Source: Lutispora saccharofermentans
GTDB lineage: Bacteria > Bacillota > Clostridia > Lutisporales > Lutisporaceae
Direction: 5' to 3'
Assembly (NCBI RefSeq): GCF_024363565.1
Contig: NZ_JAJEKE010000004.1
Coordinates: 1 to 64,000, forward strand
Length of the DNA stretch: 64,000 bases
How positions within the stretch are numbered: the stretch's first letter is position 1; each line of letters opens with the position of its first letter. The notes beneath the pieces are model-generated. The model was not told the DNA's origin and searched no databases. It worked only from the letters and a program-made list of their open reading frames with translations. The translations under genes were made by a program, and so were the position numbers. Shown one piece after another: positions 9,125-26,296 of this stretch.

Positions 9125-9269
9125 CCGTGCACATGGCACTGTTACTACATTTCCATTTTATCATATTAATGTACTTTGTTATCGTTAAAGTCCTAAACCA
9201 TTAATTTTGCTTATTTATAGGCTTTATCGATATCCTACATTTTTTACGCTATTATAGGTCGATAAAGTT
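9125..9269 (-). promoter_or_regulatory. Leader of CRISPR array 1
   Basis: This AT-rich, 145-bp gap lies between the cas2 stop codon and the first (leader-end) repeat. ACTACATTTC at 9144-9153 starts 20 nt from the repeat, exactly as in the array 2 leader. A TTATCGTTAAA block at 9179-9189 has a near copy in leader 2. A dyad element (listed separately) lies at 9222-9267. The array promoter and the integration signals are expected here. I could not pick a convincing -35/-10 pair. Confidence 0.8.
9222..9267 (-). ncRNA. Candidate structured leader element 1 (covarying hairpin)
   Basis: On the minus strand, outer arms CTTTATCGA and TCGATAAAG enclose an inner CCTA/TAGG stem and a loop beginning TAATAGCGTAAAAAA. 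Leader 2 has the same loop (with one extra T) in a hairpin whose outer and inner arms are different in sequence but still pair. That pattern suggests a selected RNA structure or protein-binding dyad. The element begins two bases past the cas2 stop codon. It lacks the U-run of a simple terminator. Function is unknown. Confidence 0.5.
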
Positions 9270-9533
9270 TTATAAAAAAATAGATTGAGGGTTTTTTTCT
9301 ACCCCAATTACCTCTCTAGTGGAATATTTCATATTGGCAAAGGTATATATTATCAAAGAATCCTCATCCTTATCCATCTTCATGGAAAGCTCATGCGTTA
9401 GTTTCTTATAATTTGCCTGAGTAATTTCTCCTTCAAAAACAGAATTTTGTACCCAAGTCAAATATTTTCTGCATATTTTTAGGGCTTTTGCAACTCTTCT
9501 TTCTCCAAAATCATAAAATAGAATAACAAACAT
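9270..9533 (-). CDS. cas2: CRISPR-associated endonuclease Cas2
   Basis: This 87-residue protein has normal Cas2 length and the ferredoxin-like start MFVILFYDFG, with the expected acidic residue at Asp8 after the first strand. In the family, a Cas2 dimer bridges two Cas1 dimers to form the spacer integrase. The ATG (9531-9533) is preceded by GGGGTGG and begins just past the cas1 stop codon, so translation is probably coupled. It is the last gene of the cas operon, and its stop codon borders the array 1 leader. The product ends ...EKNPQSIFL, short of some I-B relatives but complete. Confidence 0.95.
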   Translation of the reverse strand: MFVILFYDFGERRVAKALKICRKYLTWVQNSVFEGEITQANYKKLTHELSMKMDKDEDSLIIYTFANMKYSTREVIGVEKNPQSIFL

Positions 9534-9534
9534 G

Positions 9535-10530
9535 CTACCACCCCGCTACAAATCCTTCGTATTTTTCATTTTCAGTTATATGTTTTTGTATCTTGTAGAG
9601 CTCAAGTCTTATCAATCTTTTATAGCTTACACTTGCATTTAGCCTCGGATGTTTTATTACCGTATCCAGTTTCCCATTGTATTCTTCTATGAATTTTTTC
9701 TTTCCCTTTTCTGAAATCAATATACCGTTGAAATCTTTTTCAAAATCTTTTTTTGTTATAATGCCCTTGTTTAGAAGTGCAAAAATGGTTCTGTCCACAA
9801 TAATCGGCTTGAATATTTCAGCTATGTCCAAGTTTAAAGTAAATCGCCTTTCATTAGTTGAATGCAAATACCCTATTCTGGGATCTAGATGAGTTTGATA
9901 TATTTCGCCAAGTACTGTTGTATACATAATTGAGTTACCGAAACTGATGAGCGAATTAATGTTATCAAGAGGTGGCCTTTTGCTGCGGCCTGTAAATTTG
10001 AAATCAGTATTTTTTATAATTTCATTAAAGCAACTATAATATTCATCCCTGATGTTTCCTTCCAAAGCCATTAGCTGCTCAATCTTATTGACATCCTGCA
10101 TTTTGTTTAACTTATCTGTTATACTTACAATATTGCATTCTAAATCTGATCCTCTTCCATTATAGTATTTAATAATGACAATGATATTTTTTACTGCTGT
10201 TTCTATTATTCCTCGTGCTAATTCCATTCTTTTATTATAATCCAAGTAATGCTCTGCCTGTTTTAGTATTGCATATCCAGAATTCAAGTGTTCTCTTGGA
10301 TAAAAGCTTCCACTATAATATCCATAATAATTAAAAAAATGAAGACAGATTTCTTTTTGCGATACAAAATCAAGCAGCGATTTGTTTATAGTTACTTCAC
10401 CAAAAAACCATATATTGTTTATCTCCTCTATAGGAATATATTTTTTGCACTCTTCTGTTTCAAAAAGTATTGTGTTGTCTTTTCTTCTCATTTCCCCATT
10501 ATTAAATATATATATTTCTCTTTTCAACAC
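9535..10530 (-). CDS. cas1: CRISPR-associated endonuclease/integrase Cas1
   Basis: This 331-residue Cas1 of I-B type has an N-terminal beta domain and an alpha-helical catalytic domain. The metal-binding residues expected for the family are visible: Glu157 in MALEGNIRDEYY, His223 in GYLHSTNERR, and Glu238 in LDIAEIF. With Cas2 and Cas4 it selects, trims and inserts new spacers at the leader end of both arrays. The GTG start at 10530 follows GGGGG; an in-frame TTG one codon later is equally placed for the ribosome. It begins 9 nt past the cas4 stop codon. No degradation is seen, so adaptation is probably functional, in agreement with duplicate spacers of different length. Confidence 0.97.
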   Translation of the reverse strand: MLKREIYIFNNGEMRRKDNTILFETEECKKYIPIEEINNIWFFGEVTINKSLLDFVSQKEICLHFFNYYGYYSGSFYPREHLNSGYAILKQAEHYLDYNKRMELARGIIETAVKNIIVIIKYYNGRGSDLECNIVSITDKLNKMQDVNKIEQLMALEGNIRDEYYSCFNEIIKNTDFKFTGRSKRPPLDNINSLISFGNSIMYTTVLGEIYQTHLDPRIGYLHSTNERRFTLNLDIAEIFKPIIVDRTIFALLNKGIITKKDFEKDFNGILISEKGKKKFIEEYNGKLDTVIKHPRLNASVSYKRLIRLELYKIQKHITENEKYEGFVAGW

Positions 10531-10539
10531 ATAACCCCC

Positions 10540-11031
10540 TTAAGCATAGCAATACTCCCTGTATCCGCAACTTTTACAGTATTTATTCTTTATAATAGGC
10601 GGAGGCAGTATATTATTTATTATTGTTTCTATCTCTTTCTCTGTTTCTTCAAGAAGTAGGATCTTTTCTTCAGTTAATTTAACCTCAACTCGCTTCTTTT
10701 CCTCAGGATATAACAAAACACCCTTGGCATTGATCCCTGAATTTTTTAGTTCTCTCAAATAATACAGCAGTTGCATAGTTGAAGCTTCCTGAAATTTTGA
10801 TGTTTTCTTTGTTTCGCCAATTATCATTTCATCTTTAGTTTTAAGTAAAACATCAAACTTAACATTACCAAATTCTATTTCTTTCTTTGACCTCTCATAA
10901 GATGTTTCATGTATAAACTTTCCGATTTCAATATTTGTATCTTTTTGATCAGGAATAATATTTCTGCTCATAAGCCAGACTTCCCGACTGCAAATAGCAT
11001 AATACCACATTAATGTTCCATTGACTTCCAT
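10540..11031 (-). CDS. cas4: CRISPR-associated exonuclease Cas4
   Basis: This RecB-like nuclease of about 163 residues carries a 4Fe-4S cluster. One N-terminal Cys (in AICSREVW) and three C-terminal Cys (CKSCGYREYC) make up the cluster set. His in KFIHE, Asp in VKFDVLL, and the Glu and Lys in IIGETKK form the nuclease centre. In I-B systems Cas4 helps select PAM-flanked prespacers and sets their orientation. This fits the common PAM-side end seen in duplicated spacers here. I prefer the ATG at 11031, which has GAGGTG six bases upstream. An ATG at 11043 overlaps the cas3 stop (ATGA) and would add four residues. Confidence 0.93.
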   Translation of the reverse strand: MEVNGTLMWYYAICSREVWLMSRNIIPDQKDTNIEIGKFIHETSYERSKKEIEFGNVKFDVLLKTKDEMIIGETKKTSKFQEASTMQLLYYLRELKNSGINAKGVLLYPEEKKRVEVKLTEEKILLLEETEKEIETIINNILPPPIIKNKYCKSCGYREYCYA

Positions 11032-11039
11032 TTTACACC

Positions 11040-13274
11040 TCATAACATTTCCATGGTTTTATCGTTATACACCAAGCCCGTTGAGCTGCTATGTCCTATT
11101 GTATAGATAGGCAATTTATAATTGTTTTCACAATAATTTTTTCGAATATATTTATTAAATCTGCTTATCCCAACAGGAACCTCGAATAATGCTATCTTTG
11201 CATATTCTTTCTTAGCATATAATTCCTCAACTATTTCCTTAAACTCATATGGTATAATAGATACCTTGATATTATCCAAAAGCCTTGTTTTAAGCTTATC
11301 TTCATCATAATCCAAATCAAATATTATTTCCTCTTCAATTATTTGATTATATAGCTCTTGGCCTTTTTTATAATTTTCATCATATAAATCGAACCCTTCA
11401 TATACTTCATCTACCATATCTAAAATCTCTCTTTCTGATAAACGCCTCTGATTCTTTTTTACTACTTCCTTTGATTTTATCAATACTTCATGATGTTCCT
11501 TATATACATATTTCTCTGATACCTCGGAATAGTCAAACACTATAAACTCAGAGTCTTGGTACTCACCATGCCTATTGCACCTGCCTGCTCGTTGCACTAG
11601 GCTGTCCATGGGAGCGCATTCGGAAAACATAATATTAAAGCTAATATCAAGAGAGACCTCCATTACCTGTGTAGATACTACTATTTGATAGCTATTATCT
11701 TTTTCCAGCCTATCCTCTTTTTCAATCCTATCTTTCATGATGAATTCTGAGTGAAGGCATAATGTATTATATTTTTCAGATAACTCCTCATACAATCTTT
11801 TAGCTGTCTCAATATTGTTGACTATTACTGCAACTTTCTTCCCCTGATTTGCATAGTTTCTAATTTCATCTTTTACATCATCTATTTTATTATTTATAAA
11901 TCTCCATTTATTTTGCTTTCTATCCATGAATTCTGATGCAACTATGGGTGAGACTATACCCAATAACTCGCTAAAGTGAAGCAGCAGGAATTTTGGCATA
12001 GTTGCGCTCATTATCATGATGCGGCCTTGCAGCTTCTTTATTTTTTTTATCGTTTCCGTTATCAATGCCAGAGTAAATGTATCATACGCTTGAATCTCGT
12101 CAATAATTACAGAACTGCCCACGAGTGCATATTCCTTCAAAGACCAATATCTTGTATTAAATCCGCTTGTAAGCATTTGGTCAATTGTAGAAACCATAAC
12201 AGGGGGGATAAAAACCTTGTATTGAAGCAGCTCCAGCCTTTCTTTATCTTTAAACTCATCATTTATTGCAAAATAAACGTCAGCATTGGAATGTGTAAGT
12301 CCGCAGTATTCTTCACTGAAATAATGCTTTGCAAGCCTGTTAAAAATACTATTTGAGGTAACCATAGTAGGCATAAGAAACAGAACCTTGCTCTTTTCTG
12401 CCTTTAAAGCCCATAATAATGAAGCTTCTGTCTTTCCAGACCCAGTAGGTGCTATAGCTACAACATCATTTGTAGCTATAGCACATTCCTTATGGAACTT
12501 TCTTTCGATAAATTGCTTCCCATCAGCTTCTACTTTCTGTTTTATCTTAGCTTTAAGACCATCCTGGGTTAATACTTGCTGCATTGGTTTTTTATCTGAT
12601 GAGGAAATCCAGTCACAGTATTGTAATAATCCTTTACATATGGAATATAATGTTCTTATATTTTCTTTATTTAGGTTCAAATTAACAAAATATGATTCAA
12701 GAACATATTTTTCTAGCAATTTAAATACTGTTTCTTTTTTGATTTTGAATCTTTCAATATTCTTAACAAAGCCATATTCTTTTTTTGCATACTTCTGTGA
12801 GAGATTTAACCCATATTCATACTCTTCCTGTTTTAATAAAGGCCATGGCTGGTTGCTGTTCCATTCATTAGAGAAGCTGCTAAAGTTAATATCAAGACTC
12901 TTATGGTGGGACAGGACTGCAAAGTAATGAAATGGGAATTCTCTATAGTTTTTTTTAAAATAGTCCTGAGTGGCCAATATCATATAAACTACTGATAACA
13001 GCTCATGCCTGAAATTAATCGTCTTTAGCTTGCTGCCAAAGATTTTATTCTTCATCTCATTTTGAAAGTTTTCCGAAAGCTTACCGAAATCATGCAAGGA
13101 AACTGCTAAATATGCATTGCTTTCAAAAGCATCCATGCTATATTCTATATCACGCATTATATTGCTTAATGCTTCCTTATTTCTTTCAATCTCTTGATAA
13201 AATATATCTATGCATTTGCTTATGTGATAATCATAGCTGCCATTTTGCCCTTCAACAGATTTGGCATAGTACAT
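11040..13274 (-). CDS. cas3: CRISPR-associated nuclease-helicase Cas3 (HD plus DExH)
   Basis: This single-chain Cas3 has 744 residues from the ATG at 13274. The HD nuclease domain comes first (His-Asp in SLHDFGKLS near residue 61, then FRHE and LSHHKS). The superfamily 2 helicase follows: Walker A APTGSGKT near 276-282, DEIQ near 392, MSAT (motif III), STQVMEVSLD (motif V) and QRAGRCNRHG (motif VI). It is recruited by Cascade to nick and degrade target DNA processively. A TTG 27 nt further upstream (13301) would overlap cas5 by 8 nt. I prefer the ATG because of its GGGG-rich upstream site. All key residues are present, so interference should be functional. Confidence 0.96.
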   Translation of the reverse strand: MYYAKSVEGQNGSYDYHISKCIDIFYQEIERNKEALSNIMRDIEYSMDAFESNAYLAVSLHDFGKLSENFQNEMKNKIFGSKLKTINFRHELLSVVYMILATQDYFKKNYREFPFHYFAVLSHHKSLDINFSSFSNEWNSNQPWPLLKQEEYEYGLNLSQKYAKKEYGFVKNIERFKIKKETVFKLLEKYVLESYFVNLNLNKENIRTLYSICKGLLQYCDWISSSDKKPMQQVLTQDGLKAKIKQKVEADGKQFIERKFHKECAIATNDVVAIAPTGSGKTEASLLWALKAEKSKVLFLMPTMVTSNSIFNRLAKHYFSEEYCGLTHSNADVYFAINDEFKDKERLELLQYKVFIPPVMVSTIDQMLTSGFNTRYWSLKEYALVGSSVIIDEIQAYDTFTLALITETIKKIKKLQGRIMIMSATMPKFLLLHFSELLGIVSPIVASEFMDRKQNKWRFINNKIDDVKDEIRNYANQGKKVAVIVNNIETAKRLYEELSEKYNTLCLHSEFIMKDRIEKEDRLEKDNSYQIVVSTQVMEVSLDISFNIMFSECAPMDSLVQRAGRCNRHGEYQDSEFIVFDYSEVSEKYVYKEHHEVLIKSKEVVKKNQRRLSEREILDMVDEVYEGFDLYDENYKKGQELYNQIIEEEIIFDLDYDEDKLKTRLLDNIKVSIIPYEFKEIVEELYAKKEYAKIALFEVPVGISRFNKYIRKNYCENNYKLPIYTIGHSSSTGLVYNDKTMEML

Positions 13275-13293
13275 ATGAACACCCCGCTCAAAT

Positions 13294-14022
13294 TTAACCA
13301 AATGTAAACAACGGTACTTTGCTATCCTTAAAGTTGTAAACAGTAACAGGTTTTTTTAGAATATGAAACTCCCCCAAAAAAGTAAATTTTCTAAATTCTG
13401 TAGCTATCCTCTCATCTTTTTCATTAAAGCTGAAATCAATCGGAAGGTTTTTTACAACTGGAGGCTTAATAGTTAATTTGATAGGTAAAGCTTTTACCTT
13501 TTCCCAATCTAATTCAAAATTATTGATATAGTTTCCATCTATCCAAGTACTTCTAATCTCAACGTGCTCACTACTGCTTATGTTATCACATTTTTCAACA
13601 TTCTTTATCTTAACCAGTTCATCACTGTTTCCCAATGTCAGAGCATAGCGTGGGCATATAAATGCATTATACAGTTCATCTATCCTTTTTATATCATCAC
13701 ATGCAAAAAATATATATGCATCAATATCACATAGGAATTCTCTTAACAAGATTGCCTTAATAACTTCTTTACTCTTAATCTTTGAATAATTCCATAGATC
13801 TTTCCCTTTTCCCTGATTTTTCAATATGCATCCTACACTTACTCTGCAATCTTTAAAATATGCAAGTGCATCTTTAAAGCTTAGTCCTAAAGCCGCACCG
13901 GCAATACCTACTATGGTGCTAGGTGGCGGAACCAATATAGATTCTTGATAGAGGTGAGTATTCGGATCCCTGAAAGATGCTGTCATAGCATAGAGCGATA
14001 CAATTATTCCTTTCATTGACAT
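13294..14022 (-). CDS. cas5: Cascade subunit Cas5 (Tneap type)
   Basis: This 242-residue RAMP protein starts MSMKGIIVSLYAMTASFRDP and continues YQESILVPPPSTIVGIAGAALG, the N-terminal pattern of Cas5 where the P-P-S-T-I-V-G-x-x-G stretch is typical of Cas5t/Cst5. In Cascade, Cas5 caps the 5' handle of the crRNA and holds Cas8. Starts at 14022 and 14016 are both ATG and both near AGGAAGAGG. It lies 11 nt downstream of cas7. Its stop codon is about 20 nt before the preferred cas3 start. Identity is firm from the motif and gene order. Confidence 0.92.
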   Translation of the reverse strand: MSMKGIIVSLYAMTASFRDPNTHLYQESILVPPPSTIVGIAGAALGLSFKDALAYFKDCRVSVGCILKNQGKGKDLWNYSKIKSKEVIKAILLREFLCDIDAYIFFACDDIKRIDELYNAFICPRYALTLGNSDELVKIKNVEKCDNISSSEHVEIRSTWIDGNYINNFELDWEKVKALPIKLTIKPPVVKNLPIDFSFNEKDERIATEFRKFTFLGEFHILKKPVTVYNFKDSKVPLFTFG

Positions 14023-14033
14023 TCCTCTTCCTA

Positions 14034-14918
14034 TTACTTATTGGAATAGGTATCTCTTACCCAGCTGCGAATAATATCAAAGCATTCGCCCAGCGTTATG
14101 AATTCATCTGTATCTTTCCCAAAGAATCCCTTTCTTTCACCTATTACTGAATTGATAATCTGGTTCTTAAAGTCTGAAATCGTATTCCTTATAAGCTCTG
14201 CTTCCACATTGTCATTTTCGCCTATCCTGATGCTTTCCATAAAGATTGGGTTTTTAACACTCATTAAAGAAGCGCACACTAATTTAGGTGATATGTCTGT
14301 CAAAAATCTACTTTGCCTGCCTACAGTCCATAGACTCTGAATTGCATCGACTAACGCCAGCACTCTTTTTGCCTTTTCATCATTATCCAAGCTGAGTTCA
14401 TATTTATCACCTGTAGATTTTTCACCGATGCGATCTAGCTCTACCAGGATGGTACCGCAATAATATCCTGAATGTATTTCTGTTTCAAATATATTTGGGT
14501 TTCCACCAGAACTTACCGACATATAATTCGTTGCGAAATCAAGTTCTCCAAGATATGGAGTAAGAGCTACCAAAGGTGACACCCTCACTGGACTAGTCCT
14601 TTTGACAGTTTCTGCAGATGCATTCATAAATCCAAATAGATCATCATCAATATACTTCTGAGGATCACATTTAGTTGTTGCTGCACCTTTTTCCTTCTCC
14701 CCCGCAACTCCTTCAGATAATTTATGCCCCATTACTGACAATTGCTCTCTCAAAGCTCTTCTGACTGCTTGGGACGAGCAATAGGGATATTCCTTGCCGT
14801 CATACTTCCTGATTTTTTTGATGCTGGATATATTATCTACCTCTTTGTCCGACCCATTTAGTGAAGCATAAGTTGCCTTAGTCAAATAAGTAATTGTTAA
14901 TGCTTTTGCTTTATTCAT
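14034..14918 (-). CDS. cas7: Cascade backbone subunit Cas7 (Cst2/DevR family)
   Basis: This 294-residue protein begins MNKAKALTITYLTKATYASLNG and holds YPYCSSQAVRRALRE and FGFMNASAETVKRTSPVRVSPL, which match the Cst2/DevR type of Cas7. Several copies line the crRNA spacer as the Cascade backbone. It overlaps cas8 by 8 nt and has GGGGGA about 10 nt upstream of its ATG, as expected for an abundant, translationally coupled subunit. No truncation is seen. The family is clear from motifs and position. Confidence 0.93.
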   Translation of the reverse strand: MNKAKALTITYLTKATYASLNGSDKEVDNISSIKKIRKYDGKEYPYCSSQAVRRALREQLSVMGHKLSEGVAGEKEKGAATTKCDPQKYIDDDLFGFMNASAETVKRTSPVRVSPLVALTPYLGELDFATNYMSVSSGGNPNIFETEIHSGYYCGTILVELDRIGEKSTGDKYELSLDNDEKAKRVLALVDAIQSLWTVGRQSRFLTDISPKLVCASLMSVKNPIFMESIRIGENDNVEAELIRNTISDFKNQIINSVIGERKGFFGKDTDEFITLGECFDIIRSWVRDTYSNK

Positions 14919-16608
14919 CCTTCTTATCCCCCTTTTCTTTTAAACTTGAATTATAGAAATTATAGCTGTTTAACGCACCCATGATACAATATCCCTTGAA
15001 ATCTTCAAATGGTACTTCATTTAATACACCCTCAAGTATGGAATTTGATACTGATATACCATATCTAAACTGAAGAGTATTCAATTCTGTTATAAAATCC
15101 GTTACTGTACGGGTCTTTCTTAATGTAAATAAGTCGCCTTTAATTCTTTTCAGTATTTCCTTATTCTCACCTGAATCCTTATAAGCCTGATTAACGATTT
15201 GTTTGCCTAGTTTTACAGCAACATCAATCTGCTCTTTGTTCATGATATCCTCCTTTATTATCAAATAATACTCCAGCAAGAAATTGAGCATATTTGATAC
15301 ATTGATATACTTGCTTTCTTTCTCTTTGATTACTTTTCTGAATGTGATTGACTCAATATCCGTCAATATGCAATGTTTGCCAAGGATTTTTCTGAATATA
15401 TTGTTCCTTGATGGCAGTAGTTTTCCTTTACTGTCGGTTTCATATAAAGCATAAAATATATCCTTTATGTTTACACCCTTGTCCATAAATTGATGAATAA
15501 GCCTATATGCATAACTCACATCGTTATAAAAAATCAGTTCTTTTGTAGTAAATGTTTTATTAATTTTATCAACGCTTATGATGATTATTTCTATGGGAGA
15601 AGAAATAACATCCCCTAAAAATTCAGTAAAGATATCTTGCTCATCAGCATCATTATTTAAAGTATAGCTTTTCAATATTCTATAGGTATCTACGAAATAT
15701 GCCCAAAGCAGTTCGTAGGACATTTTTGATTTATCGATCAATCCGTCAGAATCAAACCCAATATTGCTATAGAAATAATCTTCATCTATTGACCTAAGTA
15801 CCGAACTGCAGCCTATCTTTCTTTGATTATTAATACTATGAGCTAAATCAGGTGAATTCAGTATAAGCATAGAAAGGGAAGTTCTATTTTTATTATCCTT
15901 ATAATTTATTTGCTTATAATTAACTGTTTCCATGGTAAACTTTGATACTAGTTCACATTCCCAGCATATCTTAGCGGGTTTTTTCCCTTGAGTATGAAAG
16001 GATGTGGTTGCATTGGTGCTTGCGAAAAGTAAAAAGGATGGTTGAGAAATATCATTAAGATTACTTGTTAACCTGCCGCATATGCTGCATGCACACTGCC
16101 GTTTAATATTCTCTTTGGGTAGTATTTTCAGCTTTTGATGTGATGTTGTTAGTGAATAAACTAATTTGTTTTGTTTACCAAAAAGTTTTCTCTTTGTATT
16201 CTTTAGATAATCATCCACTCTAGTCTTTAATATATCATCCATATCTTTATATTCAATACCATCTGCATCAAATTGTTTTACAAATAAAGATACAACAGGT
16301 GTTGCCTGTCTTTTTGGTGCTAGTGAGAACTCTTCTGTCTCAGGATTATACATTACTAATTCAAGTCTTTCTTTCTGAGATTTTGTAGATACATTCCAAT
16401 AGCATGAAGCAAGCTCTTTGTAGCAATCCTGCAAGAATGCCCTGATATCATCTTCACTATCTCCTTGAAAAATCAGGCTATCAGAATCAAAGTTGATTCT
16501 GATATTATTATAATTCTGAGCTTGTTTTGTCCTATTTGCAATAAAGTATAAACCTGCAATACCGGCATCAAACCACCAATGATTCCTAACATGCATTTTG
16601 TATTCCAA
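14911..16608 (-). CDS. cas8b: Cascade large subunit Cas8 (Cst1-like, CXXC-CXXC type)
   Basis: This 565-residue protein has two CxxC pairs (Cys174/Cys177 in CSICG and Cys215/Cys218 in ICWEC), the hallmark of the Cst1 group of Cas8 proteins in Tneap-type I-B systems. Cas8 reads the PAM and opens the DNA target. Overlapping spacers in this window suggest that the PAM is TTN. The TTG start at 16608 has AGGAGGG at ideal spacing. The gene begins about 15 nt beyond the cas6 stop codon. Outside the zinc-binding region the sequence is poorly conserved in this family, so the call rests on the CxxC pairs, length and operon order. Confidence 0.9.
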   Translation of the reverse strand: MEYKMHVRNHWWFDAGIAGLYFIANRTKQAQNYNNIRINFDSDSLIFQGDSEDDIRAFLQDCYKELASCYWNVSTKSQKERLELVMYNPETEEFSLAPKRQATPVVSLFVKQFDADGIEYKDMDDILKTRVDDYLKNTKRKLFGKQNKLVYSLTTSHQKLKILPKENIKRQCACSICGRLTSNLNDISQPSFLLFASTNATTSFHTQGKKPAKICWECELVSKFTMETVNYKQINYKDNKNRTSLSMLILNSPDLAHSINNQRKIGCSSVLRSIDEDYFYSNIGFDSDGLIDKSKMSYELLWAYFVDTYRILKSYTLNNDADEQDIFTEFLGDVISSPIEIIIISVDKINKTFTTKELIFYNDVSYAYRLIHQFMDKGVNIKDIFYALYETDSKGKLLPSRNNIFRKILGKHCILTDIESITFRKVIKEKESKYINVSNMLNFLLEYYLIIKEDIMNKEQIDVAVKLGKQIVNQAYKDSGENKEILKRIKGDLFTLRKTRTVTDFITELNTLQFRYGISVSNSILEGVLNEVPFEDFKGYCIMGALNSYNFYNSSLKEKGDKKDE

Positions 16609-16622
16609 AATATCCCTCCTCT

Positions 16623-17354
16623 CTATATTATTTTCACGCAGCCAAATCCCTGGCTATTTTTGCTCCCAAACCCCGCATCAACTCCTATTTGCAATAACTC
16701 TTTTCTGCCTTTTATTAAAAATCTACCTGAGGCTCCCTTTACTATTGTTTTCTTATAATAAGTAAGGTGTTGTCTTACCTTCCCTAATGGTATTACTTCA
16801 ACATTAGGCTCTCCTATCCCATTTGTTATTGTATTTACTGCATTACATTTTCGCACAAGGTTTTCCTTAACCAATCTGTTGAAATCAGGTTCTCTGGGCA
16901 TGAAATAGCAGGTATATTTGCTGTTATCAGGTTTTATAAATGTCGAATATACAACTATTGGAGATAATGTATCTATAATAATTTCATCTTTATCAACTAT
17001 TTGATTGTCTATTTGAATTCGCTCAGTTTGAATACTATTTTGACCGATAAAAAGATGGTTGCTTTGCAGCATACTATTTGCAACTGATTTGCAAAAATTA
17101 TCAAGAGGAGAAGATATTATCAACTTTGCCTTCTTTCCAAAATTAAATCTATCTTCTTCTGCTCTCCAGTCTCCAATAACACGAGAATAAGTGAACATCT
17201 TAAATGATCTGCCATTGGTAATATAACCTTTATCATGTAAAAATCTAGATAGTTTATTGTCAATATTATTATAAATAAAGGCTTGTATTATATTATTGTA
17301 ATGTATAGGTAAAACAATGTTCTTTTCACTTATAAAACTAATACTTATCTGCAC
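16623..17354 (-). CDS. cas6: CRISPR repeat endoribonuclease Cas6
   Basis: This 243-residue RAMP-fold nuclease ends with the glycine-rich loop GVDAGFGSKNSQGFG, diagnostic of Cas6. An N-terminal histidine (His18 in LPIHYNN) is a candidate catalytic residue. Cas6 cuts within the repeats to leave crRNAs with the eight-base AUUGAAAC handle. Both arrays keep that end of the repeat unchanged, so one Cas6 could serve both. The GTG start at 17354 follows GGGGGG by six bases. It is the first gene of the operon, and the fragment upstream is the tail of a deleted regulator. Confidence 0.95.
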   Translation of the reverse strand: MQISISFISEKNIVLPIHYNNIIQAFIYNNIDNKLSRFLHDKGYITNGRSFKMFTYSRVIGDWRAEEDRFNFGKKAKLIISSPLDNFCKSVANSMLQSNHLFIGQNSIQTERIQIDNQIVDKDEIIIDTLSPIVVYSTFIKPDNSKYTCYFMPREPDFNRLVKENLVRKCNAVNTITNGIGEPNVEVIPLGKVRQHLTYYKKTIVKGASGRFLIKGRKELLQIGVDAGFGSKNSQGFGCVKII

Positions 17355-17371
17355 ATAAGTCCCCCCATTTC

Positions 17372-17516
17372 TTACCTCTCCGGCATCCTCTTAGCCTGCT
17401 CAATGATCACTTTCTTTACTATCCCCGGCTCCAACACAGTCACGTCACTGCCAAATCCCAAAAACCCACTTGACTATTTCCAGTGTTCTAGTTGTGGCTT
17501 CTTTAAATAAATTTAC
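17372..17516 (-). pseudogene. C-terminal remnant of a WYL-domain regulator upstream of cas6
   Basis: On the minus strand this stretch reads LFKEATTRTLEIVKWVFG, then after a one-base shift GSDVTVLEPGIVKK...RMPER and a stop. This aligns end to end with the last 45 or so residues of the intact WYL regulator at 25182-26174 (LFQKTTTMTPEIIKWVLSFG, then SDVIVLEP). Only this tail and the promoter-side block at 17527-17568 survive, so roughly 0.9 kb of the gene was deleted. The scar now forms the region just ahead of cas6. Both the reading frame and the gene are broken. Confidence 0.85.
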
Positions 17517-17526
17517 ATATGATAAT

Positions 17527-17568
17527 TTTAATTATATTATTTGACATATTTCTGGATAATCCTTCAAA
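17527..17568 (-). promoter_or_regulatory. Conserved promoter/operator block of the deleted WYL gene
   Basis: This 42-base block matches 26255-26296, upstream of the intact WYL regulator, at about 35 of 42 positions. Shared parts include TATTATTTGACA and TAATCCTTCAAA. In the deleted copy it sits directly against the remaining C-terminal codons, about 170 bp ahead of cas6. It is a plausible autoregulatory site or promoter now driving cas6. No experimental support exists in the sequence itself. Confidence 0.6.
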
Positions 17569-17839
17569 TTTTTGAAAAGAACTTAATAATTTATGAGCCT
17601 TCAGAAATGCTTATAGGAAAGAGATAGATGTTTACAAAGCTTTTACCTAGGATATCCTCCACACTTCCACTCTGTTATGTCGTTTTGAAAATCAATAACT
17701 ACCCGTAAAACGGGTAGTTTGCTCTGAGGCTATAAGCCTCTGTTACCGGCCAGCGCCTAAAGACGCTGGCTTTCACTTTGTTCAAGCTACTACGCCATTG
17801 CCACTTTTGCCGCCCCTAAAGGGACGAACGTACTACTTG

Positions 17840-18295
17840 CTACCCCTTGAAGGGGTCTTCGTATTCTTTTACACTTAATTTGTCTACCATTATGTCATGT
17901 TTCTCCTGCTCTTGTATGTATTTCCTTATTGTTGCTTCATTTAGTCCTACTGTGCTCACATAATAACCTTCTGCCCAGAAGTGTCTATTCCCATACTTAT
18001 ATTTTAAGTTTGCATGTTTATCAAATATCATTAGGGCACTTTTTCCTTTTAGATACCCCATAAAGCTCGATATACTCATTTTCGGTGGTATACTCACTAA
18101 CATGTGTATATGATCTGGCATAAGGTGTCCTTCTATAATTTCTACTCCCTTATAATTGCATAGCTGCTTTAGAATATCCCGTATACTTTCTTTGTATTGA
18201 TTATATATTATTTTTCGTCTATACTTGGGAGTGAATACAATATGATATTTACACATCCACTTAGTATGGGCCAAACTATTTTCTTTGTTTGCCAT
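17840..18295 (-). CDS. tnpA: IS200-type HUH transposase TnpA
   Basis: This 151-residue protein begins MANKENSLAHTKWMCKYHIV. It has the HUH metal site in GHLMPDHIHMLVSIP (His62, His64) and the nucleophilic tyrosine in ATIRKYIQEQ (Tyr126). It cuts and rejoins single-stranded DNA at the element's hairpin ends. Length and motifs are complete. I chose the ATG at 18295, the family's usual start, preceded by AAAGGTGA. An upstream in-frame extension to 18436 runs through the element's 5' hairpin and is probably not translated. Confidence 0.93.
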   Translation of the reverse strand: MANKENSLAHTKWMCKYHIVFTPKYRRKIIYNQYKESIRDILKQLCNYKGVEIIEGHLMPDHIHMLVSIPPKMSISSFMGYLKGKSALMIFDKHANLKYKYGNRHFWAEGYYVSTVGLNEATIRKYIQEQEKHDIMVDKLSVKEYEDPFKG

Positions 18296-18296
18296 T

Positions 18297-18363
18297 AAAA
18301 TCACCTTTCCTTTCGTTATCATAGTAGCTTGAACAACTCTATTATAACGGAAAGGTGATTTTT
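18297..18363 (-). promoter_or_regulatory. Hairpin that hides the tnpA ribosome binding site
   Basis: AAAATCACCTTTCC (18297-18310) plus CGTTAT (18314-18319) pairs with ATAACG and GGAAAGGTGATTTT (18344-18363). On the tnpA transcript one arm contains the AAAGGTGA ribosome binding site. IS200 elements are known to limit transposase translation by such a 5' stem. That role is inferred here from position. Confidence 0.65.
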
Positions 18364-18458
18364 TTGTATAACTTCTGTCGCGCACCCGCATAGCGGGTGG
18401 TTTATTGTTTCGCAGGCTCAACAGACTAAAGTCCATAAGAAAAAAGAGCCTTTCGGCT

Positions 18459-18851
18459 CTATTTGCTCAATTTATACATTGCATATTGATTTAATGAGAC
18501 TCCTTCTTGCTGTGCTTCAATCGCTAATCTTTTATGCAAGCTCTTTGGAATTCTAAGAATAAATTTACCGCTGTAATCTTCATCTCCCGCAGGATCAGGA
18601 ATAGGATCTCCATATTCAATTTTTACTTCAAGCCAGCTTCTCATTGCCTCTCGTAAGCTTGCATAAGCTTCTTCAAAGGTTTCTCCTGTGCTTTGACAGC
18701 CATCTAATTCTAATACCCTGCCATAATAATAACTGCCGCTTTCATCTGTAACCGGCTGTATCAAATGATTGTATGGTAAACTCATGTAATAGTCAATATT
18801 CTTTTTATCCATTTCAGAAAGGTGGGAGTTAATTGTATCGTGAAGAATCAA
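18459..18851 (-). CDS. hicB: HicB-family antitoxin
   Basis: This antitoxin of up to 130 residues has an N-terminal HicB fold (YYYGRVLELDGCQSTGETFEEAYASLREAM) and a C-terminal ribbon-helix-helix segment (FILRIPKSLHKRLAIEAQQ) for DNA binding. It neutralises HicA and should repress the hicAB promoter. It lies 9 nt downstream of hicA. The listed start is a TTG with GGGAGA about 12 nt upstream. Many relatives begin nearer DYYMSLPY, so the ATG at 18812 is an alternative, though I see no ribosome site for it. The module lies between the cas operon and array 2, where it could stabilise the region against loss. Confidence 0.9.
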   Translation of the reverse strand: MILHDTINSHLSEMDKKNIDYYMSLPYNHLIQPVTDESGSYYYGRVLELDGCQSTGETFEEAYASLREAMRSWLEVKIEYGDPIPDPAGDEDYSGKFILRIPKSLHKRLAIEAQQEGVSLNQYAMYKLSK

Positions 18852-18860
18852 GGGAATTTT

Positions 18861-19082
18861 TTATCTCCCTATTCTCCTAAGTACATCTTTTATATATACA
18901 GCCTTCAGAGGATTCTCTTCTTTTATGGTTATAACTTCTCCTCGCTCATTCCTAAATTGTCTATGTGAACCTGCGCTTCTTACTAATTCATATCCATAAG
19001 CATTTAATACTTTAGCAATCTCATTGAATTTTATTCCGTTAGGCTGTTTCTTCATCTTACATATTATTTTGTCAACTCCCAC
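18861..19082 (-). CDS. hicA: HicA-family mRNA interferase toxin
   Basis: This 73-residue toxin has the double-stranded RNA-binding-like fold. The catalytic histidine is in RSAGSHRQFRN (His40), followed by the typical ITIKEENPLKAVYIKDVLRRIG ending split across two conserved stretches. HicA cleaves mRNA when HicB is lost. The GTG at 19082 has AAGGAGGTGA eight bases upstream. It is the promoter-proximal gene of the pair. Length and catalytic His are intact, so it is probably active. Confidence 0.92.
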   Translation of the reverse strand: MGVDKIICKMKKQPNGIKFNEIAKVLNAYGYELVRSAGSHRQFRNERGEVITIKEENPLKAVYIKDVLRRIGR

Positions 19083-19108
19083 CTTTTAGTCACCTCCTTC
19101 TTCATTTA

Positions 19109-19127
19109 TATAGTATCATATATAGTA
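19109..19127 (-). promoter_or_regulatory. Candidate hicA promoter/operator repeats
   Basis: TATAGTA occurs at 19109-19115 and 19121-19127, 12 bases apart, within an AT-rich stretch 27-45 nt upstream of the hicA start. It overlaps a plausible -10 on the minus strand and is a candidate HicB operator. This is inference from spacing and position. Confidence 0.4.
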
Positions 19128-19229
19128 CCGCAAATCAATTATATCTTAACCTTCTCTTTATAAAAATATTTTAATCATAATAAAGGCAGCATAACATGGG
19201 CAGCCGGTGAAGTTCTGATTTATATACAG

Positions 19230-19619
19230 GTTTCAATTTCTTATAGATACTCTAGTAGCGAGGATGGAGAGCCTTGTGTCGGCTGGTGGCTGGAGTAGTT
19301 TCAATTCCTTATAGGTACCCTAGTAACCGGACTGACTGGCCTATCAAACAGAGCTTGCATGGAGTTTCAATTCCTTATAGGTACTCTAGTAACTATCATA
19401 GTATTCTTGCTCTTCTTCCTTCACAGCATCGTTTCAATTCCTTATAGGTACTCTAGTAACCCTAGCAAAGGGGAGAAAGCAAAAATGGACGTCAAATGTT
19501 TCAATTCCTTATAGGTACTCTAGTAGCGCTGACGAGTGACGTCACAAGCGTTATCCCTCCGGGTTTCAATTCCTTATAGGTACTCTAGTAACCACCATCT
19601 TCACCAAATAAGAAATATA
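19230..19619 (-). CRISPR. CRISPR array 2, leader-distal segment (6 repeats)
   Basis: Repeats start at 19230, 19298, 19364, 19431, 19498 and 19563. The outermost copy has decayed (TTTCTTATAGATAC inside, ending GTAGC), the second carries one change, and the fifth ends GTAGC. The innermost is perfect. Decay at this end marks it as the old trailer, so the array reads leftwards from its leader near 24869. The last spacer (from 19593) is interrupted after 27 nt by the ISL3-type element. Confidence 0.97.
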
Positions 19620-19717
19620 GTAAGCGTACAATAGGTTCTTTCCCACTTTAGTTGAATAGTGATTGCATCTATATGGAACACTAAAATTAGCTAATAAAAC
19701 TAATGGGAGTGTAACAT

Positions 19718-20161
19718 ATGAATGAATTTGTGAAATCGTTAGACCCGTCACTCAACTATTTAACCCATGAAACATATGAACACAAGATAATTATTGTTGT
19801 GGAATCAAGCCGTAGCGAAATAAATTGCCCTTATTGTGGGAAAATAGCATCCAAAGTACACTCAATATACCAAAGAAAACTTCAAGATTTGCCATTACAA
19901 GATAAACAAGTTACTATCTTACTAAACAACAGAAAATATTTTTGTGATAACCGGGAGTGCAGCCACAAAACTTTTGCAGAAAGATATGATTTTATTGAAA
20001 GTAAATCTCGCAAAACCAAAAGGCTTATAGATAAAATTTTAAGGTTATCCACCACGGTTAGTTCAGTATCAGCATCACAAATATTAAAAGCAGATGCTAC
20101 TATTGTAAGCAAGAGTACTATCTGCAATCTACTTAAAAAAAATGCCTTGCATTATGGATAA
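19718..20161 (+). pseudogene. ISL3 transposase, N-terminal part (split by a frameshift)
   Basis: This 147-residue part has the zinc-binding start of ISL3 transposases (CPYCG at Cys37/Cys40, then CDNRECSHKTF). A helix-turn-helix-like segment follows, ending STICNLLKKNALHYG before a stop. The family protein continues without a break into the sequence now in the next frame. The switch falls at a run of eight A residues (20135-20142). It could be a disabling indel in the homopolymer or be bridged by transcriptional slippage. Confidence 0.85.
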
Positions 20162-21476
20162 AAGTAGCATTCGTAAAATTTGTATTGATGATTTTGCATT
20201 TAAGAAGCGGTATTCTTATGGAACAATTATGGTTGATCTTGATTCACATAAAATAATTGATATATTGGACTCCAGAGAAAAAGAACCAGTCATAGAATGG
20301 TTAAGAGACTATTCAAACCTTGAGATTGTATCCAGGGATGGATCACAAATTTATGCTTCTGCTATAGCAGAGACCCATCCAGGAGCTATACAAATTAGTG
20401 ACCGGTTTCATCTTCTTAAAAATTTATCGGAGGCAGTGGAAAAATATATGTTGCGATTATTTCCCGCCCGCCTTGAAATACCAGCTACAGCGGAATCAAG
20501 AACACCCCAGATGCAAACTTTACTGGATACAAGAAACCGAGCACAACGGATACGTTTTGCTAAAGCAAAATATGAAGAAGGTTTAACTGTAAATGAAATT
20601 GCTCTTTTAATGCATTCATCACTTTCTACAATTAGTAAATACTTAGCTATGAAAGACGAAGATATCCCTGAAGACATTAGCTCTGCTAGGGAACGCCAAC
20701 ATAAAGAGGCTATATTTACAAAAGAGCAGAAAGTTGCCTACGTTCGTAAATTGTTTGAACAGGGATGCTCATTTGAAGAAATTAGCCGAATTACAGGACA
20801 TGTATATAATACAATAAAAAGATATCTATCCGAAGATAATTCAAATATTAATGGACATTATGATTACCGACGCTCCGGAAAATTACAACCATATGAATCG
20901 GAAGTATTAGAATTACGTTCAAGGGGTATGACATATACCAGTATTGTAGAAATAATAAAGGAAAAGGGATATACGGGTACTGTTGCTGCGTTACGGGTTT
21001 TTATGCAAAAAGAGCGTGAACACCAAAAGCGATGTGAAACTGAAACTCCAGAATTAAAAGAGTATATACCTCGAAAGTGGATGGTTCAACTCATATACAA
21101 GACAATTGATGATGTAAAGGAAATCACACAGGAAAAATATGAAGCGATAATTGAAAAATACCCTATCCTAGGGAAAACATATCAAATGCTTAGAAGTTTT
21201 CATGAACTCATATTTTCTAAAAAGGTAGATAAATTAGAATCATGGATGGAAGAAACTCAAAAGCTTCAGATAACGGAAATAAATTCTTTTTTAGCTGGTT
21301 TACGAAAAGACCTTACTGCAGTAAAAAATTGCATCACTTATAGTTATAGTAATGGTCTTGCGGAAGGAAGTGTCAATAAGCTAAAAGTCATAAAGCGAAT
21401 TATGTATGGTAGAAGCAGCTTTGAGCTTTTGAAATCAAAACTGCTCCTATTGGAATTATTTCATCAGATCAACTAA
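20142..21476 (+). pseudogene. ISL3 transposase, catalytic part (split by a frameshift)
   Basis: This 444-codon stretch begins inside the A-run and holds the DDE catalytic core of ISL3 transposases: Asp in KICIDDFAFKKRYSYG, Asp in ISDRFHLLKNL, and Glu in NGLAEGSVNKLKVIKR. Joining it to the upstream part through the A-run gives KKMPCIMDKSSIRKICIDDF, a natural family sequence. The relative frame is +1 (or -2), unlike the usual -1 programmed shift of many IS elements. Apart from the break the protein appears full length, so the damage is recent or tolerated. Confidence 0.88.
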
Positions 21477-21540
21477 AGTGGGAAAGAACCTATTGTGCGC
21501 TTACAATACAACTCCAGATGTTACACATATTAAAAAATAG

Positions 21541-24500
21541 GTTTCAATTCCTTATAGGTACTCTAGTAACCGATTTAAACGCTATATTACCAACCAGCGT
21601 TACGAGGTTTCAATTCCTTATAGGTACTCTAGTAACTGATGGCATACAGTTCTATTGCCTTTATCTGTTATTATGTTTCAATTCCTTATAGGTACTCTAG
21701 TAACTCAAAGCATGTCAACGAGCTCGATAACCTGAATTAGTTTCAATTCCTTATAGGTACTCTAGTAACATAGCTCAAACGCTCGCCAGTTTTTCCACCA
21801 TCTGAGTTTCAATTCCTTATAGGTACTCTAGTAACTGATGTCGTATTCATCTATATCATCAATGATAGTTGCGGTTTCAATTCCTTATAGGTACTCTAGT
21901 AACTATATTCTTTCATATCCTTGGGCAGATTTTCGGCAATGTTTCAATTCCTTATAGGTACTCTAGTAACCAGTCTTAACAGCGTTTAAAGCTGTAGTCA
22001 TAGCGGGTTTCAATTCCTTATAGGTACTCTAGTAACGAGGAGGAAGCAAGCTGTAATTGCAAATTTTCCTAGTTTCAATTCCTTATAGGTACTCTAGTAA
22101 CTCACACCATTCTTGAAACTGTCTGTATAATAGATGTTTCAATTCCTTATAGGTACTCTAGTAACCCATGCAGCTTCCCCCTTTAAATTATATTTAGCTC
22201 GTTTCAATTCCTTATAGGTACTCTAGTAACTCTCAGGCATCTACAGCCCTCCTATCCAACACTAGTTTCAATTCCTTATAGGTACTCTAGTAACTCAAAT
22301 GGTGCAATCCCAAACATTTCATTGACTTCATGTTTCAATTCCTTATAGGTACTCTAGTAACGTATATCCATTTGCATATATTTCTTTAGCTATCTCGTTT
22401 CAATTCCTTATAGGTACTCTAGTAACTTTATTTCATCGGTAGCCATAATTTTGTTTTCCGTGTTTCAATTCCTTATAGGTACTCTAGTAACCATTTGCAA
22501 GGTTTTGCTGTATTGGTTTCTACGTCGTTTCAATTCCTTATAGGTACTCTAGTAACGGTCCGGTCTTTTTGTACTGCATAACGCTACTATGCGTTTCAAT
22601 TCCTTATAGGTACTCTAGTAACTTAGGTGCCTGTTGGCCGCCTGTTGGCTGGTCTGTTATGTTTCAATTCCTTATAGGTACTCTAGTAACTTACTGGGCT
22701 GCAAAATGTTATCAGCGGTTTTAGAGGTTTCAATTCCTTATAGGTACTCTAGTAACCCACTATATTTAATAGTTCTAAAAACAAGTTCATAAGTTTCAAT
22801 TCCTTATAGGTACTCTAGTAACGTACGTCTTAACAGCGTTTAAAGCTGTAGTCATAGCGGGTTTCAATTCCTTATAGGTACTCTAGTAACAGAGGTATAG
22901 AGGCATGTTTGTTAGTAACACGTTAGGTTTCAATTCCTTATAGGTACTCTAGTAACTTAAGTTTTACAGCGGCCACAATCACGCCGCCATAAGGTTTCAA
23001 TTCCTTATAGGTACTCTAGTAACTCGCAATAGCCGCAAGGCGCGCTTCGATTTCCTGGTTTCAATTCCTTATAGGTACTCTAGTAACCGTTTGGTTGCTT
23101 GCATATTGAAGCCTATTCGCCGGTTTCAATTCCTTATAGGTACTCTAGTAACGTGAAGCCGTCCGGAAGAATAGCAGGGGAAAGCACGTGTTTCAATTCC
23201 TTATAGGTACTCTAGTAACTCAAGTGCTTTTGTCATGGCTTCAACAACATTGTTTAGTTTCAATTCCTTATAGGTACTCTAGTAACTCTTTTCATGGCTG
23301 TACCTCCATTCCCAGATAATCAGGTTTCAATTCCTTATAGGTACTCTAGTAACGTCCACCCATGCGCGGCTATCAATTAGCTGTTGCAAGTTTCAATTCC
23401 TTATAGGTACTCTAGTAACGTCAAGCATCTATTCCACCCCTTCCGGCCAAGCTATGTTTCAATTCCTTATAGGTACTCTAGTAACGTTGTGTTTTAAGGC
23501 CACATTGAGGAAATGAGCTTGTTTCAATTCCTTATAGGTACTCTAGTAACCCATACTTTCTACGGCCCACATTGCATTACCTTGATAGTTTCAATTCCTT
23601 ATAGGTACTCTAGTAACTGACCATGCTCCAGTGCCTCCGCATAAATCCAAAAGTTTCAATTCCTTATAGGTACTCTAGTAACTTACTTCTCCGGCAAGGT
23701 CCCTGTCCAAACATATAGAGGTTTCAATTCCTTATAGGTACTCTAGTAACCCAGAGTTCTCAAGCCTTATACCCGATAAATCCCCGTTTCAATTCCTTAT
23801 AGGTACTCTAGTAACTTAGCGGGCTTTTGTCATCTGTTAGATATATGGTAGTTTCAATTCCTTATAGGTACTCTAGTAACGCTAAAGTAGTCTAAAGCTT
23901 CCACGCCTAATACAAGTTTCAATTCCTTATAGGTACTCTAGTAACTCAGGAGTACCATTGAAAACAACACCTGCATCAGGTTTCAATTCCTTATAGGTAC
24001 TCTAGTAACTTGTTGTATTCGTCTGCAGTGATTTCGTTTACCAGTTTCAATTCCTTATAGGTACTCTAGTAACCATCGGCAGAAGAACTGACCTCAACAT
24101 TTTTGCCTGGTTTCAATTCCTTATAGGTACTCTAGTAACTTAAATATAGTGGTACTTATCAGATAGGGCTTCAACGGTTTCAATTCCTTATAGGTACTCT
24201 AGTAACCTTATGGAGTGCTTGCATTCTCGCTCTATAAATTGTTTCAATTCCTTATAGGTACTCTAGTAACTCATTGCCGGAATACTATCTTCATAGGTCT
24301 TTTTTAGTTTCAATTCCTTATAGGTACTCTAGTAACCTCTGCTGTTCACAAATAATCCCTCCCCATGATTCGGTTTCAATTCCTTATAGGTACTCTAGTA
24401 ACCAATGTACTTCGCCCATGCAATCCATATCACCGTGTTTCAATTCCTTATAGGTACTCTAGTAACATTGAACTCTTTGATACCTCTACGGCTTCAGCGA

Positions 24501-24868
24501 AGTTTCAATTCCTTATAGGTACTCTAGTAACCAGGTCGAGAAAAGCCTGTGACGGAATTTGGTGAGAGGTTTCAATTCCTTATAGGTACTCTAGTAACTT
24601 TTGAGCTTATTTAGAGCACCAATCATATCGTTTAGTTTCAATTCCTTATAGGTACTCTAGTAACCTAGGTACGCAATAGGCTGTTTTGCACTGTCTACCA
24701 TCCCAAGTTTCAATTCCTTATAGGTACTCTAGTAACTTTAGAGAAAATAAGGCCATTTGAGCCGAATTTGGTGTTTCAATTCCTTATAGGTACTCTAGTA
24801 ACCCTGAATGTGTCGGTTCCTCAGTGCGACCCAAGAGAGTTTCAATTCCTTATAGGTACTCTAGTAAC
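21541..24868 (-). CRISPR. CRISPR array 2, leader-proximal segment (51 repeats)
   Basis: I counted 51 repeats of 30 bp, from 21541 to 24839-24868. Each starts GTTTCAATTCCTTATAGG and ends CTCTAGTAAC, so the first 20 bases match array 1 and three of the last ten differ. Spacers are 34-38 nt except one of apparent 42 nt at 24665-24706. Two spacers are shared with array 1 (24467-24501 with 7803-7836, and 22037-22071 with 8261-8297). One protospacer appears twice here (21971-22006 and 22823-22860). No adaptation or interference genes lie beside it other than the single cas operon. Confidence 0.99.
24665..24706 (-). repeat. Chimeric repeat-spacer junction in array 2
   Basis: The array 2 repeat at 24635-24664 is followed by CTAGGTAC, the last eight bases of the array 1 repeat, and then by a normal 34-nt spacer (24673-24706). 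The resulting 42-nt unit is the longest spacer in the array. It looks like the scar of a recombination or transfer from array 1. The remaining spacer was not found in array 1 as shown. Confidence 0.7.
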
Positions 24869-25060
24869 CATTTCACAGCCTCATACTACTACATTTCATA
24901 TTTCTTTGTCAAATCAATATATTTTTCTAGACAAAAGATAGATTATCGTAAATAGGTTGATATACCATAACTATAGCTAATTTCTACACAAAAATAAATT
25001 GTCGTCGATCTCCAGGTTTTTTAACGCTATTAGAGAGCGACGACAATTTATAAATACTTA
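24869..25060 (-). promoter_or_regulatory. Leader of CRISPR array 2
   Basis: This AT-rich DNA follows the youngest repeat. ACTACATTTC at 24888-24897 starts 20 nt from the repeat, as in leader 1. TTATCGTAAA at 24943-24952 matches the block at 9179-9189. A hairpin element lies at 24994-25051. The rest, up to the WYL stop at 25182, shows nothing else recognisable. Confidence 0.8.
24994..25051 (-). ncRNA. Candidate structured leader element 2 (covarying hairpin)
   Basis: Perfect 14-bp arms, ATAAATTGTCGTCG and CGACGACAATTTAT, enclose an inner TCTC/GAGA stem and a loop starting TAATAGCGTTAAAAAA on the minus strand. The loop is shared with element 1 at 9222-9267, while both stems differ in sequence yet still pair. 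The element lies upstream of the leader-side end of the array, in the direction of transcription. Role is unknown. An RNA, a protein-binding dyad or a DNA cruciform are all possible. Confidence 0.55.
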
Positions 25061-26174: not shown

Positions 26175-26254
26175 AAGATTCCTCCCGCTTCTCTTGTTTT
26201 TAATATACCTCATAGTCCGGACAGAATATGGGCGTTTTATAAAATTTTCAAACA

Positions 26255-26296
26255 TTTAATTGTATTATTTGACACAAATATGGTTAATCCTTCAAA
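26255..26296 (-). promoter_or_regulatory. Promoter-side block of the WYL regulator
   Basis: This block lies about 80 nt upstream of the preferred WYL start and is conserved in the cas6-side scar (17527-17568). Shared stretches are TATTATTTGACA and TAATCCTTCAAA. Conservation between two non-coding copies suggests a binding site or promoter, perhaps for the WYL protein itself. The 26297-26445 stretch beyond it, ahead of the divergent araC gene, shows only AT-rich DNA. Confidence 0.55.

Follow-up and report, generated by a model that had tools for sequence, protein, structure and literature searches.

A covarying hairpin phased to the leader-repeat junction of type I-B CRISPR arrays is a candidate landmark for the spacer integrase

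Introduction

Inverted-repeat or stem-loop DNA in the leaders of clustered regularly interspaced short palindromic repeats (CRISPR) arrays is described in several published accounts. In type I-F systems, Cas2 residues contact inverted-repeat motifs in a leader folded by IHF (PMC12259127), and Cas1 of the S. islandicus type I-A system, P. furiosus and Synechocystis binds leader stem-loops in vitro (PMC9456107). A 2021 study of C. difficile 630 reported two conserved inverted-repeat motifs upstream of every array; spacer uptake was observed only at arrays 8 and 9, a difference for which the motifs did not account (PMC8406132). Transcription starts of C. difficile arrays have been mapped, with 'leader' used for the stretch between the start and the first repeat (PMC3649979), and adaptation in trans between CRISPR types has been described in Flavobacterium (PMC8092290). 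Here we analyse a hairpin element in the leaders of both CRISPR arrays in a stretch of 64,000 nt from Lutispora saccharofermentans (contig NZ_JAJEKE010000004.1, positions 1-64,000; hereafter the window), together with its relatives in other genomes. To our knowledge it is unclear how the leader end of an array is recognised by the type I-B systems of these hosts, and we know of no counterpart in them to leader folding by IHF.

Results

Two leader hairpins share a loop and have covarying stems

The initial annotation of the window reported minus-strand hairpins at 9222-9267 (array 1) and 24994-25051 (array 2) with a shared loop start, and both are present. Hairpin 1 has a 9-bp outer stem (CTTTATCGA/TCGATAAAG), a 4-bp inner stem and the 17-nt loop TAATAGCGTAAAAAATG; hairpin 2 has a 14-bp outer stem (ATAAATTGTCGTCG/CGACGACAATTTAT), a 4-bp inner stem and the loop TAATAGCGTTAAAAAACCTG. 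Both loops open with TAATAGCGTNAAAAA, and the outer stems pair in both hairpins although their sequences differ, as had been claimed. The inner arms pair as well, but in a slightly shifted rather than an equal register, since hairpin 1 carries a 3-nt ATA bulge and hairpin 2 a 1x1 mismatch. The loop pattern TAATAGCGTNAAAA has two mismatch-free occurrences in the 4.32-Mb genome, which are the two hairpins.

A covariance model built from both hairpins, the check that the initial annotation had proposed, retrieved many further copies beside other I-B arrays. At E 0.05 this model (R1) matched in 12 of 99 genomes, the source genome included. Nineteen of the 20 loci from this search, two of them the window's own, have a CRISPR array; the twentieth has one repeat, and its contig ends 159 nt past the hairpin. 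Among 80 named loci found via Cas1, many have an R1 match on the cas strand about 260-460 bp past cas1, just after the presumed cas2. An almost gapless alignment of 83 copies in 54 columns (A6; in the window the aligned cores are 9218-9271 and 24996-25049) was the basis of a sequence-only model (R2) and of a hidden Markov model (HMM).

The loop AATAGYGYAAAAA is conserved across the copies. Pairing is kept in 85.9% of the stem cells of A6, and the covariation score is 0.319, against 0.181 +/- 0.010 in shuffles and at most 0.144 with slid partners, with 100 doubly changed cells. Copies with compensatory changes therefore exist, and the reading of the two hairpins as a selected structure stands. 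Because the structured two-sequence model retrieved the 83 seed copies, pairing counts in them are biased towards structure; even the 106 copies retrieved by the sequence-only model go back to the same seed alignment. At position pair 8-47, 272 copies comprise C-G 203, T-A 41, T-G 10 and C-A 11, with 41-42 expected for each mismatch. Across the phylum most outer arms read GTCGTCGA/TCGACGAC, and departures covary, including those between this genome's two arrays. The inner stem is less regular. The consensus of the hairpin is TGTCGTCGAYCnnnAATAGYGYAAAAAnCCCnGGnGATCGACGACA.

Some repeats, with starts of the GGTTTTTA type, look complementary to TAAAAACC. Pairing between loop and repeat was rejected, by inspection and with no count, because the loop is near-constant while repeats start GTACCTAG, GTTACTAG, GTTTAGAT and in other ways.

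The hairpin accompanies CRISPR arrays and type I-B Cas1

With R2 or the A6 HMM at E 1e-3, a copy on the cas strand was found at 61 of the 80 Cas1 loci. The same models found the hairpin in 120 of 398 genomes of a phylum-wide sample and in 45 of 391 genomes of a class sample. Carriers include Lutispora, Clostridium, Paenibacillus, Anoxybacillus and Pelotomaculum, and also records labelled Nitrospirae and Desulfonauticus. Hairpin and type I-B Cas1 (Cas1b) occur together in 92 of the 398 genomes, the hairpin alone in 28, Cas1b alone in 30 and neither in 248 (odds ratio 27). One single-contig genome (G540) has ten hairpins, at least seven of them inside about 23 kb (C1:717681-740002).

Altogether 273 distinct copies were collected. 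An array follows within 700 bp downstream on the same strand in 210, and a single repeat in 26. Eight copies reach a contig end, and 29 have no downstream array, 14 of which have an array on the opposite side. This leaves 15 copies with an array in neither expected position; some are close to the end of their contig, and at least one adjoins an apparent insertion-sequence end, which suggests that their arrays were lost. A mobile repeat resembling a miniature inverted-repeat transposable element, or a chance dyad located at arrays, could be read into these 15 copies but is scarcely credible given the 210 that precede an array and the 26 ahead of a single repeat, the spacing rule described below and conservation across many families. 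One array-less hairpin (L382:8108-8156) adjoins a HepT/nucleotidyltransferase toxin-antitoxin pair, with a weak second copy 1.2 kb away. On viral contigs, five of 47 pattern matches are the element: two ahead of an array, two inverted and the fifth with no visible array.

The distance from hairpin to first repeat grows in steps of about 12 bp

In 148 arrays (limits 40-250 bp) we measured the distance from hairpin core to first repeat, leaving out copies with no detectable array or without the expected repeat end. The gaps fall into clusters of 91-95, 101-106, 112-120, 127-129 and 137-141 bp, centred near 92, 104, 116, 128 and 140 bp, with a few at 109, 110, 122, 124-126 and 131 bp and one at 151 bp. 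The periodicity measure R was 0.70 at 12.0 bp and 0.27 at 10.5 bp. When each family label contributed a single array (85 labels, with every named locus treated as a label of its own), R was again 0.70.

We wrote down the prediction of gaps at 92+12n bp before turning to held-out arrays, some of which came from genomes of the first set. Here 41 of 51 arrays were within 2 bp of a predicted value, against 21 expected; R(12.0) was 0.56 with the same phase of 8.0, the maximum was 0.58 at 11.75 bp, and outliers at 71 and 198 bp were retained. In a set of 205 arrays (limits 60-200 bp) grouped at 70% identity into 107 leader clusters, the period was 11.9 bp (bootstrap 95% 11.7-12.1, R = 0.62), none of 2000 jittered nulls reached the observed R, and 87 of the 107 clusters were within 2 bp of 92+12n. 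Cut-offs of 66, 70 and 75% identity gave periods of 11.8, 11.9 and 11.9 bp; they replaced a cut-off of 60%, which merged nearly all leaders. Helical phasing at 10.5 bp was rejected (R = 0.20 against 0.62 for the 70% clusters).

The phasing was seen on the array side. Distances from the stop of the upstream open reading frame (ORF) to the hairpin had no 12-bp period (n = 160, R(12) = 0.07; R peaked at 0.19, at 9.1 bp), whereas the distances from hairpin to repeat gave R = 0.66 in the 202 arrays of this comparison, in which the upstream neighbours were bare ORFs rather than annotated genes.

Both arrays of the window fit the rule. Leader 1 (9125-9217, minus strand) puts 93 bp between the aligned core and the first repeat, that is 92+1, and leader 2 (24869-24995, minus strand) puts 127 bp there, that is 128-1. 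The initial annotation had placed the element upstream of the leader; it is better described as the conserved distal end of the leader. Between hairpin and repeat the leader is poorly conserved, save for A-x-G-G just ahead of the repeat, a T tract at about -18 and AA at about -28. A/T tracts in the leaders are repeated at intervals of about 10 and 19 bp (z ~4), a pattern expected of curved DNA. This recurrence and the 12-bp step in leader length are two differing periods.

Inverted copies occur at other arrays, including type IV-like ones

The 14 copies inverted relative to their array lie at their own distances, 12 at 47-50 bp, one at 60 bp and one at 119 bp; in the last, a diverged copy of the repeat lies within the gap, at about 49 bp from the hairpin. 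Arrays with inverted hairpins belong to other repeat families. One such group (L374) comprises a second I-B system that has Cas8b1/Cst1 and Cas1b. Three further loci (L376, L379 and L380) adjoin Csf2- or Csf3-like genes, with scores of 32-48 bits that are below NCBI cut-offs, and two of the three have a RecD2-like helicase; by these gene contents they are likely type IV-like. No cas1 was found near these three arrays, and all cas1 matches of their genomes are elsewhere. In G659 these matches are at 0.70 and 0.97 Mb and the array at 2.97 Mb; in G057 cas1 is matched at 2.33 Mb and the array is at 2.67 Mb; in G506 cas1 matches are on three contigs other than that of the array. An IscB match (353 bits; L376:6764-8071) stands beside the Csf2-like and RecD2-like genes, the type IV-like array and the inverted hairpin of L376.

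Gene context of the two arrays

Array 1 is downstream of the cas2 gene of an I-B operon and array 2 downstream of a WYL-domain regulator gene, all on the minus strand. As had been noted, hairpin 1 begins two bases beyond the stop codon of cas2 (9270-9533; Pfam PF09827, TIGR01573). Next come cas1 of type I-B (9535-10530; TIGR03641, 459.7 bits) and, at 10540-17354, the remainder of the operon: cas4, cas3, cas5, cas7 (Cst2/DevR), an ORF with no family match that is labelled cas8b by position only, and cas6. The leader-end repeat of array 1 is GTACCTAGATTACCTATAAGGAATTGAAAC (9095-9124) and that of array 2 is GTTACTAGAGTACCTATAAGGAATTGAAAC (24839-24868); repeats of the two arrays differ at several positions. 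Immediately ahead of the first repeat, leader 2 contains TTGACA-N18-TAGTAT.

Array 1 (12-9124) starts at the window edge and spans about 9.1 kb, an estimated 138 or so units if spaced at 66 bp (uncounted). Array 2 is interrupted by an ISL3-family insertion (19597-21526) with a zinc-ribbon ORF (19718-20161) and a DDE transposase ORF (20142-21476). No separate hairpin match was found for the distal part of the array, whose repeats extend to about 19592. The stretch from the cas operon to this distal part contains an IS200-type Y1 transposase ORF (17840-18436) and a HicB-family antitoxin ORF (18459-18851).

The WYL gene upstream of leader 2 (25182-26255; Pfam WYL and WCX) was considered as a universal binder of the element and set aside, because copies at most of the 80 Cas1 loci are found 260-460 bp past cas1, after the presumed cas2. 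Upstream of the cas operon (17464-17568), two stretches resemble parts of the WYL gene (25282-25329 and 26255-26296; 79% and 86%), which gives the impression of a second, decayed WYL gene at this place.

Discussion

A leader landmark read as DNA

We propose that the hairpin is a leader landmark from which looping of the DNA delivers the Cas4-Cas1-Cas2 integrase, or a helper protein, to the junction of leader and repeat, and put the probability of this at roughly 55%. The evidence favours an element that acts as DNA rather than RNA, because its spacing is quantised, its outer-stem mismatches have no RNA-strand bias and inverted copies exist at arrays. Of the forms that the initial annotation had offered (RNA, cruciform or dyad) the structure itself is borne out and the DNA forms are preferred. 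The element, in the form of a cruciform or a double-stranded dyad, would be bound by Cas1-Cas2, Cas4 or a helper such as HU. The stretch of leader from there to the first repeat would then be bent, looped or wrapped so that both ends face the same complex, and the leader end would thereby be marked as the site of spacer insertion. If a hairpin-bound protein meets the integrase at the junction in this way, the gap may vary by whole turns only. One adaptation machine could serve several arrays, including arrays of systems with no cas1 of their own. More tentatively, and with somewhat less confidence than an even bet, we suggest a shared address tag: the I-B Cas4-Cas1-Cas2 machine and a bending protein would read the hairpin through a loop that grows in 12-bp steps, and the cas1-less type IV-like arrays would carry the tag, inverted, so that the host's I-B machine fills them.

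Several observations weigh against the landmark. The association with Cas1 is incomplete in both directions. No hairpin was found at 19 of the 80 Cas1 loci (at least three of these contigs end within 460 bp of cas1) or, at E 1e-3, in 30 of 122 Cas1b genomes, although one of four inspected has a weak match (E 0.0016). Conversely, 10 of 15 hairpin-only genomes tested, from the 28, had no Cas1 match. For G540, with its ten hairpins, no match to Cas1 or Cas3 passed the thresholds used; in G682, a single contig with five hairpins, Cas3 was found and Cas1 was not. Such genomes could hold relics, or the element could serve expression, and they count against a role in adaptation only. The length of the step is a further difficulty. 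The helical repeat of relaxed DNA is 10.5 bp. That of lac loops in vivo is given as about 10.9-11.0 bp (PMC1831498). A step of 11.9 or 12 bp is larger than both, so simple looping leaves the number unexplained; either underwound DNA or a lattice of protein would have to account for it. Within the three pairs of the inner stem, 186 copies have T-G 125 times against C-A 17 times, which is readable as RNA wobble. The pair between the two stems runs the opposite way (C-A 81, T-G 5), and we put the excess down to inner-stem G residues conserved by sequence, which makes pairing there weaker evidence; the wobble test is thus mixed. A loop of 18-20 nt is also large for spontaneous cruciform extrusion. 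We found no results on binding, adaptation or expression for the element in the open-licence literature. Finally, the inverted-repeat motifs of C. difficile may be this element. If so, it is insufficient, because all arrays have the motifs and uptake of spacers was observed at only two (PMC8406132).

The main rival is a DNA operator or activator site, at which a dyad-bound regulator would reach RNA polymerase or the leader promoter through a phased loop, with no role in spacer insertion. We consider this unlikely, yet it has substance. A promoter-like site lies between hairpin and repeat in 66 of 148 leaders, against 36 expected by shuffling, and in several leaders it is a good sigma-70-type promoter; a DNA-bound activator is also compatible with phasing and inversion, and would fit the hairpins kept in Cas1-less genomes, one of them with Cas3. 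The promoter-like sites, however, vary in position from about -20 to -80 relative to the repeat, while the hairpin is phased to the repeat itself, and its presence tracks I-B Cas1.

An RNA element, transcribed from the cas operon or another upstream gene as a 3' untranslated region, leader RNA or antitermination signal, is improbable. A covarying stem with a conserved loop is typical of structured RNA, and the minus-strand RNA folds are strong (z = -3.9 for 9215-9275 and -5.8 for 24988-25058 against dinucleotide shuffles). Furthermore, 151 of 202 arrays have the end of a co-directional ORF no more than 250 bp upstream, there is a mild enrichment of promoter-like sites on the upstream side of the hairpin (51 of 194 against 33 expected), and the T-G excess of the inner stem could be added. 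Against this, the plus strand folds about equally well (z = -3.2 and -6.4 for the regions of hairpins 1 and 2). Outer-stem mismatches are strand-symmetric, with G-U 47 and A-C 36 in 2421 stem cells and G-U 2 and A-C 8 in the sequence-only-model copies, whereas G-U would be expected to prevail in an RNA made from the modelled strand. An RNA function gives no reason for phased distances to the repeat, and inverted copies exist. Rfam at gathering level matched only CRISPR-DR2 repeats in the window and no other family, and the related copy L147 gave just sub-threshold, eukaryotic-type chance matches (E 0.3 or worse). RNA antitermination elements are exemplified by boxA, EAR and LoaP RNA. Such an element was attractive for arrays, which are long and untranslated; we dropped it in view of the promoter-like sites found downstream of the hairpin in many leaders and of the quantised spacing.

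A transcription terminator or insulator, blocking upstream transcription ahead of the array, is more doubtful still. The hairpin often directly follows a stop codon, and its stem is GC-rich in AT-rich surroundings. Of 272 copies, 33 have a run of five T past the stem and 27 have one on the mirror side; hairpin 1 lacks such a run. With no excess of T runs we rejected an intrinsic terminator, which would also leave the long conserved loop and the quantised spacing unexplained.

Comparison with known systems

The hairpin gives I-B leader-end recognition a concrete, sequence-defined candidate site with a testable spacing rule. It marks the leader side of an array, and may help to guess from sequence which arrays, including those of systems with no cas1, share one adaptation machine. 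In its leader-side position (210 of 273 copies, and 26 at a single repeat) and its phasing to the leader-repeat junction, it has two properties expected of an adaptation signal in a CRISPR leader. Integron attC sites are another case in which the sequence of a stem drifts while its structure is kept beside the target of an integrase, attC itself being recombined. The likeness lies in a structure maintained next to an integrase target; unlike attC, the hairpin stands about 100 bp away from where insertion takes place, and most of its stem sequence is conserved.

The initial annotation knew of no described element with this loop. We likewise found neither the loop nor the spacing rule nor the range described in the open-licence literature, which is weak evidence of absence, and the motifs of C. 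difficile 630 call for caution. They too are inverted repeats in clostridial I-B leaders; the passage that describes them gives no loop consensus, covariation, spacing rule or breadth (PMC8406132). Like the leader stem-loops that Cas1 prefers in the systems of PMC9456107, the element is stem-loop DNA in a leader, and its pairing is kept through double changes (100 cells), as would be expected of a cruciform or stem-loop site for Cas1. The S. islandicus stem-loop, as that passage has it, is leader-proximal and bound without sequence specificity, whereas the hairpin here is distant and conserved in sequence. The resemblance to type I-F leaders, as far as the cited passage describes them, is that inverted-repeat DNA upstream of the array is linked to the integrase and to leader folding (PMC12259127). 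Unlike in type I-F, the element here is one long hairpin with a conserved loop of about 17-20 nt, set 92-140 bp from the repeat in 12-bp steps, and it belongs to I-B and type IV-like systems, mainly of Bacillota.

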